Below are positions 20,316 through 25,739 of a DNA stretch of 40,302 nt, piece by piece; within the stretch, counting starts at the first letter, position 1, and every line of letters starts with the position of its first letter. Both the position numbers and the translations under genes were made by a program. The stretch comes from a virus. The notes beneath the pieces were generated by a model, which saw only the letters and a program-made list of their open reading frames with translations, did not search any database and was not told the origin of the DNA. Where the stretch lies: IMG/VR virus record IMGVR_UViG_3300032311_000186, positions 1 to 40,302 of that record. One strand, written 5' to 3'.

Positions 20316-20383
20316 GGTGTCCTTTAGATAGTCTTTTGCCGTCCTACACTGTCTGTCAGTCACCTGTACTGTAACTGTATGAG

Positions 20384-20404
20384 CCAGGCTATATAAAAGC
20401 CTGG
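20384..20404. promoter_or_regulatory. Hairpin in the terminase leader
   Basis: A six-base-pair perfect inverted repeat CCAGGC / GCCTGG encloses a nine-base A/T loop (tatataaaa), about 70 bases upstream of the terminase start. The loop reads TTTTATATA on the minus strand, which could double as a weak -10 element. Nearby lie ACAGTAC-type words (20366-20372 as GTACTGT, 20425-20431). Role uncertain. Confidence 0.3.
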
Positions 20405-20513
20405 CGAATAACTTACTGCTACATACAGTACTAATCCGTCCAAACAGGTAAAACGGACGTTTTATTCTCAACTATTTTTATCACCTATGCTAAGTAGGTC
20501 GTTATGTCCTATT

Positions 20514-20686: not shown

Positions 20687-20767
20687 TAACCAGGCGCTCC
20701 GTGTGCTTCAGGACTTAAACAAAAATCCCATGCTAACTGCACAAGATTTAAATACAAAGTACTAATG

Positions 20768-20785
20768 GAACGGCTAGCGCCGTTC
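20768..20785. other. Perfect short hairpin
   Basis: GAACGGC (20768-20774) pairs with GCCGTTC (20779-20785) around a four-base TAGC loop, seven pairs without mismatch. No T-run follows on either strand, so it is not an ordinary terminator. It separates the two structured segments of the early leader and could be a protein-binding site or mRNA structure. Confidence 0.4.
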
Positions 20786-20852
20786 AATGTTGTTAAAGAG
20801 TAACTGCCTTACTGCCTCCTGCTGGACACAGACAGAGTTCGCTGGTGTTCCC

Positions 20853-20949
20853 ATTGTACACCCGTCCGCAAGTCGCAAGGGCCTTCAGCCCTTAGAGCGC
20901 GACTCGGAGCCTGAGCTGAAATACGCTCAGGTGCGTTAGGGTGTCCAAT
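20853..20949 (+). ncRNA. Candidate three-way-junction RNA before the first early gene
   Basis: The outer stem pairs ATTG-T-ACACCC (20853-20863) with GGGTGT-C-CAAT (20939-20949): ten pairs with one mismatch. It continues through CGCA (20867-20870) / TGCG (20932-20935). Inside are two arms. Arm one pairs AGTCGC (20871-20876) with GCGACT (20899-20904), topped by AAGGGC-CTTCA-GCCCTT (20877-20893). Arm two is CCTGAGC (20910-20916) with GCTCAGG (20925-20931) and an eight-base loop. The structure ends 41 bases before ATG 20991. It could be a cis-acting leader, a stable small RNA or a DNA structure such as an origin. Not tRNA-like; no known class recognised. Confidence 0.55.
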
Positions 20950-20990
20950 TGTAGGTGACTTTCAAAGGTTGAGAGTCAGAAGGGTAAAAA

Positions 20991-21392
20991 ATGACAAGCC
21001 AAGGAATCAATATCACAAACCAGTGCTACGACTGCTTACAAATGGACGCATTGTGTGATAACTGCCAAGACCTTGCAGACGCTCGAGTGGCAGACCTAGC
21101 CCATGAACTTGTAGATGAAGGCAACCTTCAATACAAATACCAGTGGGTATATTCTACAAAGCAACCAAGTGGCCATGATTGGGTATCTGCAACCCAAATC
21201 GTGGGCAAAGATACAGACGGTTTCTTTATACTTCGTAAGGAATACTTCGAAGGCGAGATTCATGCACGCAGTGAATCTATATCCTTCGACGATGACACTG
21301 AAATTCCAAACAATCAAGTTGTTTGTAACTGGTGTCATCTAACAACACTCGCGCAAACCAAGTGTGTTAACTGCGATGAATATGTCTCATAA
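20991..21392 (+). CDS. Early zinc-binding protein (133 aa), unknown
   Basis: First gene of the early unit, with AGAAGGG six bases before the ATG. It has two Cys pairs near the N-terminus (CYDC and CDNC at about 13-27) and two near the C-terminus (CNWC and CVNC), enough for two zinc knuckles around a middle domain rich in aromatic and acidic residues. First-gene position suggests a host-takeover protein, but this is inference; no family recognised. Confidence 0.65.
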   Translation: MTSQGINITNQCYDCLQMDALCDNCQDLADARVADLAHELVDEGNLQYKYQWVYSTKQPSGHDWVSATQIVGKDTDGFFILRKEYFEGEIHARSESISFDDDTEIPNNQVVCNWCHLTTLAQTKCVNCDEYVS

Positions 21393-21522: not shown

Positions 21523-21528
21523 CAGGCT

Positions 21529-21556
21529 GCCCCCCAGTAACAAGTGACAGGGGGGC
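21529..21556 (+). promoter_or_regulatory. GC-rich hairpin between early genes
   Basis: GCCCCCC (21529-21535) pairs with GGGGGGC (21550-21556), loop of 14 bases, in the 62-base gap after the tiny zinc-ribbon gene. There is no T-run downstream, so it more likely affects mRNA stability or processing upstream of the SSB-like gene than ends transcription. Confidence 0.45.
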
Positions 21557-21596
21557 AACCCCAGAAAATCCAACTAACTAAGAAATGGAGCACCAA

Positions 21597-21932: not shown

Positions 21933-21973
21933 AGGGATACCAGGCTTCGGCTTGGTATCCCTCTATTTTTTTT
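21933..21973 (+). terminator. Intrinsic terminator with UUCG tetraloop
   Basis: AGGGATACCAGGC (21933-21945), TTCG loop, then GCTTGGTATCCCT (21950-21962): thirteen pairs including one G-T, closed by C(UUCG)G and followed by CTA and eight T (21966-21973). This is a textbook rho-independent terminator ten bases after the SSB-like gene. A second hairpin, CCCGCC / GGCGGG (21980-21985 / 21993-21998), follows. Genes beyond need read-through or another promoter. Confidence 0.9.
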
Positions 21974-23520: not shown

Positions 23521-24840
23521 ATGCCTGATGTAGTAGAGACATCAAGTGATGTCGTTACAGATACAACGCATGGTTTATGTGGTGTATGTAATGACATATT
23601 TGTAGAGCCAGATGAGACATCACTAAGCACTGATGTCTGGAATTATAGATACTCAAAGGTAGAAATATCTGCAAGAATATCTCCTGACAATGACTGCCTT
23701 GAAATAATCTATGGTCATAAAAGATGTGGCCAACAATGCGATGAATGTAATCGCTATTTCTTAGGTAGTCGTTGGGGTGGTTGGGCTAGAAACAATCTAC
23801 CTAAAGTAAAGATGGAGTATATTCATGGCAGAATATATTGCCCTGGATGTACAGAACTATGGCAAGAAACAAATCCAGATTATGTATCATGTGATGAATG
23901 TAATCAAATGTTTGGTGACGCAGACGATTTATACTGGTCTGAGTTACATAATGATAGCAGGTGCCGTGATTGTTACAACAGTGAAATAGAGTGTGATGAT
24001 TGTGGTGATTGTTTTGGTGAAGAGGACGGTCATAGTTGTGATAGTCGCACTAGAAACTACAGCGAGTATGTGCATAGCTGGAGTTATAAACCTGACCCTA
24101 GATTTTGGGGTGAAGGCAAGTACTACCTTGGCTTTGAGTTAGAGGTAGAAGATACTAATGACAACTATGCAATAGGTGCTGAACTAGCACATAATACTCT
24201 GAATCCAGTGCGTAATCGCAAGTATCGTGGCTATCTTAAAGGTGATGGTTCATTAGCAAATGGCTTTGAGATTGTTACTCATCCACATACACTTGAAGAG
24301 TATCAAAAGAACTTCCCTTGGACTATTCTAACTGAACTTAAGAAGTTAAGATTCAGGTCTTGGAACACTAGTACTTGTGGATTGCACGTACATGTAAGTC
24401 GTACTGCATTCGATAACGATGACCATCAGATTAGATTCATCAAACTAATCTACGATAATGAACGCCAAGTACAAAGGATTGCTGGTCGTAGTTCTAACTA
24501 TGCTAGCTTCTCTGACGCAGGTAAGATTATTCCAAAGGTTAAATACAAGAACCAATCAAACGGTAGGTATGCTGCCGTTAATGTTGAACCAGATAATACA
24601 TTAGAAGTTCGTGTGTTTAAGGGTTCATTACATATACCTAGAATATTATCTGGCTTGGAGTTTGTTCAATCAGTAGTTGAATATACTCGTGAGCTTAAGA
24701 TAATCCCCAAAGATAAACCATTCTCTTGGGTAAAGTATGTAGGTTACATCGGTTCTAATACCGATAAGTATCCTAATTTGTTTGAGACAATCAATCGTTC
24801 ATTCAATAGCGATTCACACAATGAGAGTAGAGAGGACTAA
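23521..24840 (+). CDS. Zinc-ribbon/amidoligase fusion protein
   Basis: A 439-aa protein with two parts. Residues 18-175 hold a string of CxxC pairs (CGVC, CDEC, CPGC, CDEC, CRDC, CDDC), a zinc-ribbon array. Residues about 200-400 match the amidoligase (glutamine-synthetase-like COOH-NH2 ligase) pattern: YYLGFELEVEDT (202-213, metal-binding acidic residues), LKGDGSLANGFEIVTHPHT (239-257), and STCGLHVHVSRTAF (284-297, the paired His). Family enzymes form amide or peptide bonds using ATP. The next gene encodes a class II glutamine amidotransferase, which would supply ammonia; such pairs are known in bacterial and phage operons. Substrate unknown. AAAGGGA precedes the ATG. Confidence 0.8.
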   Translation: MPDVVETSSDVVTDTTHGLCGVCNDIFVEPDETSLSTDVWNYRYSKVEISARISPDNDCLEIIYGHKRCGQQCDECNRYFLGSRWGGWARNNLPKVKMEYIHGRIYCPGCTELWQETNPDYVSCDECNQMFGDADDLYWSELHNDSRCRDCYNSEIECDDCGDCFGEEDGHSCDSRTRNYSEYVHSWSYKPDPRFWGEGKYYLGFELEVEDTNDNYAIGAELAHNTLNPVRNRKYRGYLKGDGSLANGFEIVTHPHTLEEYQKNFPWTILTELKKLRFRSWNTSTCGLHVHVSRTAFDNDDHQIRFIKLIYDNERQVQRIAGRSSNYASFSDAGKIIPKVKYKNQSNGRYAAVNVEPDNTLEVRVFKGSLHIPRILSGLEFVQSVVEYTRELKIIPKDKPFSWVKYVGYIGSNTDKYPNLFETINRSFNSDSHNESRED

Positions 24841-24842
24841 TC

Positions 24843-25739
24843 ATGTGTATGTTATGCGTACTACCACCAGGAGTTACTCCATCAAGAGATAAGTTGGAAA
24901 ACTCTGCATTAAATAATCCACATGGCTTTGGCTTTGCCATTGCCGTACCTAGTGAGAACAGAATCATAGTAGAGAAAAGCATGGACGCAGATGAATCTAT
25001 CAATAGGTTCTTAGCACAGCGTGCTATCTATCAAGATGGCTATGCTATGTGGCATGCCCGGTTCGCTACCCATGGTTCTCGTACGCTAGAGAATTGCCAC
25101 CCATTTGCAGTAGGTCATGATGACCGTACCTATCTTGGACATAATGGTATCTTATCTATTGAGATACCAGATAAAGATGACCGCAGTGATACTAAAGTAT
25201 TTGCTGAGGAGTTATTGCCTAGACTAGGCGGAGTTACCGCACTAGATGATGACTACATCTGGAATATGCTACAAGATTATACATCTGGTTCAAAGGTATG
25301 TGTCATCACCGTTGACCCTGCTGCTAAGCACCCTATGTACTTACTTAATGCTGACTCAGGTAAAGAAGACGAGTCGGGTGTATGGTGGTCTAACGATACA
25401 TGTAACTTGGGTTACTCTAGCTATGCTGCATCAAATGTTACTAACCGGTACGCTGGTTGGTACAATGATTACGATGATGAGTATGCTTGGGCTGGATACA
25501 ATAAGTTAGCCAAAGACACAGTCAAGCAAGAGAAAGTACCTAATGATTTAGAAGTGCAACAATGTACTCACTGCAGTGAATGGGTATCAGAGTCTGACCT
25601 ATGGGAAAGTATGGGCACATGTGTTTGGTGTGGCTCCTGCTTTGATTGCGAGAACGTTGCTGAACTATGTCAGTGTGGGTACCCGAATGGGCGGGTAGGA
25701 CACACAAAGAAACTAGAACAGGACGCTATCCCGTTCTAG
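24843..25739 (+). CDS. Class II glutamine amidotransferase with C-terminal zinc ribbon
   Basis: A 298-aa protein whose Cys2 (MCMLCV) becomes the N-terminal nucleophile after Met removal, as in GATase class II (YafJ/GlxB-like). Supporting residues: NPHGFGFAIA (25-34), MWHARFATHGSRTLENCHPF (69-88), and YLGHNGIL (97-104), the substrate loop and Asn-Gly oxyanion region. The last 65 residues carry zinc-ribbon pairs (CTHC, CVWC, CFDC, CQCG) similar to the ribbons of the neighbouring amidoligase. It starts two bases after that gene ends. Expected reaction: glutamine hydrolysis delivering ammonia to the amidoligase. Confidence 0.85.
   Translation: MCMLCVLPPGVTPSRDKLENSALNNPHGFGFAIAVPSENRIIVEKSMDADESINRFLAQRAIYQDGYAMWHARFATHGSRTLENCHPFAVGHDDRTYLGHNGILSIEIPDKDDRSDTKVFAEELLPRLGGVTALDDDYIWNMLQDYTSGSKVCVITVDPAAKHPMYLLNADSGKEDESGVWWSNDTCNLGYSSYAASNVTNRYAGWYNDYDDEYAWAGYNKLAKDTVKQEKVPNDLEVQQCTHCSEWVSESDLWESMGTCVWCGSCFDCENVAELCQCGYPNGRVGHTKKLEQDAIPF

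Follow-up and report, generated by a model that had tools for sequence, protein, structure and literature searches.

Structured RNAs that are borne by phages and have no known function are a kind already described, in the GOLLD and ROOL families (PMC12286853), which are large and ornate, occur in phages and prophages, and combine conserved with variable parts. In phage HK022 the early transcript carries putRNA, about 70 nt in length, which forms two stem-loops with no closing helix and binds the beta' zinc-binding domain to suppress termination (PMC9378689), and the boxB hairpins of phages lambda and P22 present a GNRNA-type pentaloop on stable stems. The element described here, a three-way junction in an IMG/VR virus record, resembles GOLLD and ROOL, together with its relatives, in being phage-encoded and highly structured, with conserved and variable parts and without a known function. 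Relatives of the junction reach several hundred nt, as do those RNAs, whereas the form in the window (the whole stretch of DNA that was analysed, 40,302 nt) measures only about 100-250 nt. It differs from both families in giving no Rfam match to either, in not lying beside tRNA genes, of which the window holds none, and in its site where early and late genes diverge. Resemblance to putRNA, as a structured RNA at the start of the early transcript with a terminator downstream, presupposes that the RNA is the plus strand, to which the strand evidence is opposed; the shape also differs, the junction measuring 87 nt and having both an internal loop and a closing helix (P1). Pentaloops like those of boxB occur on the minus strand in about ten relatives of the junction, but no boxA or N-like protein was identified, and the arm in the window is without such a pentaloop.

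Covariance models of 4227 Rfam families, including GOLLD, ROOL, riboswitches and ribozymes, were compared with the window and 27 related loci, both at the gathering threshold and in E-value mode. No credible match was obtained, and a known RNA class was rejected on this ground, in agreement with the preliminary description of this DNA, which had recognised none. Our search of the literature on phage noncoding RNA likewise returned nothing of this kind, and none from 'Ca. Nanopelagicales' phages. As far as these comparisons reach, the junction represents an undescribed phage RNA family.

The portal protein encoded in the window shares 75-76% identity with its counterparts in two GenBank phage records, the Planktophila phages LanE43AprE7 and AprF5, which were the first phages to be isolated that infect the freshwater actinobacterial order 'Ca. 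Nanopelagicales' (PMC10202952). Portal and terminase place the window phage in the same group as these isolates, which also have a long noncoding region upstream of the terminase; they differ from the window in that the junction core was found in neither. GenBank phage records held no relative of the junction region at the nucleotide level, and a search of a genome collection for prophage hosts, using the terminase, found nothing. The junction sits between the terminase and structural genes, which run leftward from 20471, and the early genes (exonuclease, DnaB-like helicase, WhiB), which run rightward from 20991. Upstream of the terminase, at 20380-20470, a motif TTAATCCGTTCAAACAGGTAAAACGAAC (in the window ACTAATCCGTCCAAACAGGTAAAACGGAC) is strongly conserved in most relatives and is accompanied by an inverted repeat; this is probably a promoter/operator region. 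Elsewhere in the window, two adjoining genes at 23521-25739 on the plus strand are similar to the amidoligase and glutamine-fructose-6-phosphate aminotransferase families. The features of the junction and its surroundings are these:

20853-20949, strand unassigned: full element of the preliminary description, including the outermost 4 pairs
20858-20944, most likely minus strand: core junction RNA, recognised by its fold, z-score, relatives and covariation over 14 pairs
20858-20863 with 20939-20944, most likely minus strand: helix P1a
20864-20866 with 20936-20938: 3x3 loop, GUC/UUA on the plus strand and UAA/GAC on the minus strand
20867-20869 with 20933-20935, most likely minus strand: helix P1b
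20871-20904, most likely minus strand: arm P2, 6+6 pairs with a one-sided 5-nt bulge at 20894-20898
20909-20932, most likely minus strand: arm P3
20768-20785, strand unassigned: hairpin GAACGGCTAGCGCCGTTC, between the junction and the minus-strand terminator-like hairpin
20723-20749, minus strand: terminator-like hairpin of 11 pairs (three G.U) followed by UUGUUU, about 100 nt beyond the junction
20956-20978, plus strand: separate hairpin or palindrome GTGACTTTCAAAGGTTGAGAGTCA, directly before the early RBS, its place conserved
21933-21973, plus strand: intrinsic terminator of 13 pairs with a UUCG loop and a U-tract, inside the early operon about 1 kb downstream of the junction

The three-way junction that had been reported at 20853-20949 was present at that position, with a minimum free energy of -45.5 kcal/mol, and the argument that so many stems are unlikely by chance was borne out by a z-score of -4.9, with none of 200 shuffles folding as well. 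The segment 20851-20950 had the lowest raw energy of all 1610 segments of 100 nt scanned on both strands across the 40 kb (-48.4 on the minus strand, -46.1 on the plus strand), and ranked first and third for energy below dinucleotide shuffles. Its outer helix, given as ten pairs with one mismatch, consists of ATTG.ACACCC and GGGTGT.CAAT, forming 4+6 pairs around one U.C mismatch, and the first arm has the six plus six pairs reported for it (AGUCGC and AAGGGC). Two helices require correction, the inner one (CGC/GCG) having three pairs in place of four, and the second arm (GCCUGAGC/GCUCAGGU) having eight, including a terminal G.U, in place of seven. The 3x3 internal loop separates the outer helix from the inner one, and the distance of 41 nt from the end of the element to the first early gene, with its ATG at 20991, was as described. 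A 50-aa plus-strand ORF at 20787-20939 was rejected as coding because the length of the element differs by 25 nt among close relatives.

Examination of related viral contigs revealed the element at the same site in several of them, with L003, L087/L002, L001 and L163 sharing the arms of the window. In L090 and L092, the outer helix (ACACCC/GGGTGT) and the loop (GTC/TTA) are identical to those of the window, the inner helix is GTC/GAC in place of CGC/GCG, and the two arms, though unrelated in sequence to those of the window, are once more perfect hairpins, AGCCTGCAAGCAGGCT replacing arm P2 and GTTCGAGCAAGCTCGAAT arm P3. Arms and inner helix have been replaced with their pairing intact, and therefore it is the shape, not the sequence, that is kept. 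The outermost four pairs (ATTG/CAAT) are not kept in L087, L001 and L090, and the hairpin at 20768-20785 is missing from the same three contigs, which have other sequence there. Stem bases varying without compensation, which the preliminary description had named as grounds against the structure, were looked for in the relatives; the structure withstood this comparison, and covariation was present. The three-way junction is a real, conserved structured element.

The gene that follows the element varies, the 133-aa early protein coming directly after it in the window and in L090, and other small ORFs coming first in L003, L001, L092 and L087. Because the following ORF changes while the element stays, the element is not tied to one gene; a gene-specific riboswitch or autoregulation was rejected for this reason, and the earlier suggestion of a cis regulator of the first early gene finds no support. 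For the decoy RNA and the replication origin suggested alongside it, the analysis turned up nothing either in favour or against. In the leader of L087, past the junction, small ORFs are inserted ahead of the gene that is usually the first early one; they differ among very close relatives, which is gene exchange at that site.

Terminase searches yielded hundreds of relatives, and the analysis covered 82 distinct leaders among them. Several distant relatives carry, immediately ahead of the first early gene, the same core (P1a, the conserved 3x3 loop, P1b and P2) with up to five arms. This distant core reads TACTCC GTC GTCAAATC...GATT.CTC...TGAC TTA GGAGTA in L071, L081, L141 and L157, and L104 has the same core but a different P2 base. 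The strings CCGTCGTCAA and TGACTTAGG on either side match exactly between L090 and the distant relatives, and P1a differs between them in sequence with pairing retained. When the core was aligned by blocks (P1a, loop, P1b, A, P2 base), giving 14 pairs in seven distinct sequences, 96.9% of cells were paired, where shuffles gave 73% and slid partners 40% at most, ten of the 14 pairs had changed on both sides, and the covariation score was 0.667 against 0.241 for shuffles, a comparison that is not a probability because no more than three or four lineages stand behind the seven sequences. The distant group by itself was 98% paired, and four pairs had changed on both sides. The core itself served as the search pattern for part of the distant set (L256 and later); L071, L104 and L157, which are in the counted alignment, were found by terminase homology. 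Looser versions of the core were seen in L103, L147, L095, L156 and L133, which are possible members.

A covariance model (R1) built from eight distant members had 19 significant hits when applied to 584 kb, these lying in the loci of the phage group, and no match in the cultured relatives E7 and F5. Its match to the window element was not significant (4.1 bits, E 0.09 in 801 nt), falling on the right strand and coordinates and third among the weak matches. Because R1 misses significance on the window, the link between the window and the distant relatives rests on the aligned core, the flanking strings and the position; the window has P1a, the GUC/UUA loop, P1b, the A and a P2 starting with A-U, all upstream of the first early gene. 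A loose descriptor (GTCAA...CTC...GAC) applied to all loci gave more matches in the reversed control than in real sequence, and relaxed DNA patterns in viral contigs gave many chance matches, with true returns restricted to members already known. At the level of sequence comparison, then, the structure is conserved, with a constant core, modular arms and a fixed position. Another strong three-way junction (AAGGACAAGCAGC...GTCCTT), lacking the core, lies right before the first early ORF in the leaders of L089, L097 and L100, and is possibly a divergent or unrelated version.

The preliminary description took the folded RNA to be a plus-strand leader of the early unit, which is probably wrong, since the distribution of G.U pairs indicates the minus strand, as do the UAA/GAN loop and the pentaloops. 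Standard pairs make up 100% of arm P2 in the distant group when it is read on the minus strand and 92.5% on the plus strand, and every plus-strand deviation is a C.A or A.C that becomes G.U on the minus strand. Among pairs common to the folds of both strands across whole leaders, G.U occurs at 6 positions on the minus strand versus 2 on the plus strand. Pentaloops of the GNRNA type (GAAUA, GAAAA) on at least 7 closing pairs were found on the minus strand only, in ten relatives. Unpaired bases of natural structured RNAs are rich in A and poor in C, and in the predicted folds A makes up 38% of the unpaired bases on the minus strand and 27% on the plus strand, C making up 16% and 31%, respectively. 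Folding energies are also lower on the minus strand, and a choice of strand from energy alone was dropped because this advantage comes partly from composition. Read on the minus strand, the 3x3 loop is 5'-UAA/5'-GAC in all aligned core members, which agrees with the UAA/GAN internal-loop motif of Lee, Gutell and Russell (2006) as described in PMC12550061, in which UAA faces GAN between two helices; in the distant members L360 and L361 it reads UAA/AAC. This motif forms a GNRA-like cross-strand stack of A residues that is known to dock in tertiary contacts, of the A-minor type; the motif is a module, not a family, and the likeness to the junction RNA lies in this loop. Two G.U pairs favour the plus strand, at the closing pair of arm P3 and at the end of P1 in L104, and the window group by itself gives little strand information. 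A leftward promoter was not recognised to the right of the element, and the alignment for a minus-strand promoter gave no consensus. From the pairing and loop evidence we infer that the junction RNA is most likely transcribed leftward.

Judging from its terminator-like form on the minus strand, the hairpin at 20749-20723 is a possible 3' end of this leftward RNA, whose length would then be about 250 nt. It is 97% paired in six relatives, with G.U on the minus strand, and its changes are one-sided, with no covariation; it was not seen in most distant relatives. Under relaxed criteria, the leader regions of the 82 relatives contained 28 terminator-like sites on the minus strand and 7 on the plus strand, these being consensus matches that lie partly in coding sequence. 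Very large minus-strand folds are predicted for this region in distant relatives (L156 reaching -343 kcal/mol over 796 nt), and relatives' minus strands of 376-786 nt fold well below shuffles. The predicted junction RNA is most likely compact in the window (about 100-250 nt) and part of a structured region of 0.4-0.8 kb in relatives. Beyond the junction, the minus-strand leaders of L081, L142, L124, L071 and L133 have recurrent hairpins with GGCUUUAGAC-like tips, and a purine-rich segment GGCGAGAGAUG is common to their larger structured region. On the other side, the hairpin at 20956-20978 shows symmetric changes, including a C-G to A-U exchange among close relatives, and has U.G pairs on the plus strand in both groups; therefore the early mRNA probably also crosses it, and the hairpin is probably part of that mRNA. 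Its role could be that of an mRNA hairpin or of a DNA operator. Between early genes, at 21524-21558 on the plus strand, there is a hairpin GGCTGCCCCCCAGTAACAAGTGACAGGGGGGCAACC, and similar ones with GTGACAGGGGCAACC occur in relatives such as L116.

The main rival to a leftward RNA is a plus-strand early leader acting as a put/EAR-like antiterminator, in which the nascent RNA would fold behind RNA polymerase and allow readthrough of a terminator, so that the replication genes are transcribed. The terminator at 21933-21973 is the only strong one on the plus strand in 40 kb, and a terminator of this type lies in the early operon on the sense strand in 28 of the 57 relatives with enough sequence (antisense in 2); among close relatives it is kept although its stem sequence is replaced. 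From the stem to the start of the next gene the distance is usually 56-82 nt, rising to 100 nt or more in a few cases, and in the window no sigma70-like promoter was found in this interval. A terminator so placed needs either a special promoter behind it or regulation of readthrough, on whichever strand the junction RNA lies, and antitermination is also consistent with the early-leader position, as for put in HK022 (PMC9378689), and with the plus-strand U.G pairs of the hairpin before the RBS. However, the G.U/A.C bias speaks for the minus strand, as do the UAA/GAN loop and the pentaloops, the shape is not that of putRNA, and a small conserved motif that follows the terminator (GTAAYC...CGGAC...AAGTCC) could be a promoter of another type. 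On balance we regard antitermination by the junction as rather unlikely. A plus-strand 5'UTR structure with no role other than stabilising the early mRNA or adjusting its translation would fit the 41 nt before the ATG and the second conserved hairpin directly before the RBS, but such a role has no need of conserved unpaired core nucleotides or a strand bias, and we consider it very improbable.

Any minus-strand transcript here would be perfectly complementary to the early leader, and it is conceivable that a leftward RNA shuts off early expression at the onset of leftward (late) transcription, its fold serving the speed and the stability of pairing. Arms do exchange between close relatives as specificity elements would, but a constant core with a tertiary-type loop and the long ornate versions exceed what antisense control needs, and the leftward promoter that it calls for was not found; this explanation is improbable, less so than the one just given. 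The strand bias would equally fit a DNA-level element, in which single-stranded DNA of the minus strand takes up the fold at a primosome site or an origin of replication, and the switch of transcription direction at this site and the DnaB-like helicase encoded in the early operon agree with such a function. G.U wobbles, UAA/GAN and GNRNA loops are chiefly RNA motifs, however, and no iterons or origin hallmarks were noticed on unsystematic inspection, so that we hold a DNA element to be the least probable of these alternatives.

The explanation that we propose, with about an even prospect of being correct, is that the window carries the compact form of an undescribed family of leftward phage noncoding RNAs, with a partner of its own, rather than a switch for the adjacent gene. 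The RNA would be made during infection, from the early-gene side towards the terminase, and in the window would probably end at the hairpin at 20749-20723. P1, with the UAA/GAN loop in it, would be the closing helix of a multi-way junction built around a constant core of P1b, one unpaired base and P2, with the remaining arms exchangeable. The UAA/GAN loop may dock in tertiary contacts, and the putative action would be that of a tertiary-folded RNA engaging its own partner. We can further postulate, at slightly less than even likelihood, a new class of ornate phage RNA that is leftward and tertiary-folded, of about 0.1-0.8 kb, in which a small core (P1 with UAA/GAN, P1b, P2) stays constant and the arms are swapped freely. 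RNAs of this class would lie at the early/late switch in many relatives of phages of abundant freshwater actinobacteria, and would act during infection in their own right, as a scaffold, decoy or multimer.

'Ca. Nanopelagicales' are among the most abundant lake bacteria. Should the RNA be the plus strand, the junction would instead become a candidate case of RNA-only antitermination distinct from the known put and EAR systems. A constant core with exchangeable arms, readable from sequence in many metagenomic phages, offers a test case for the origin and role of large ornate phage RNAs.
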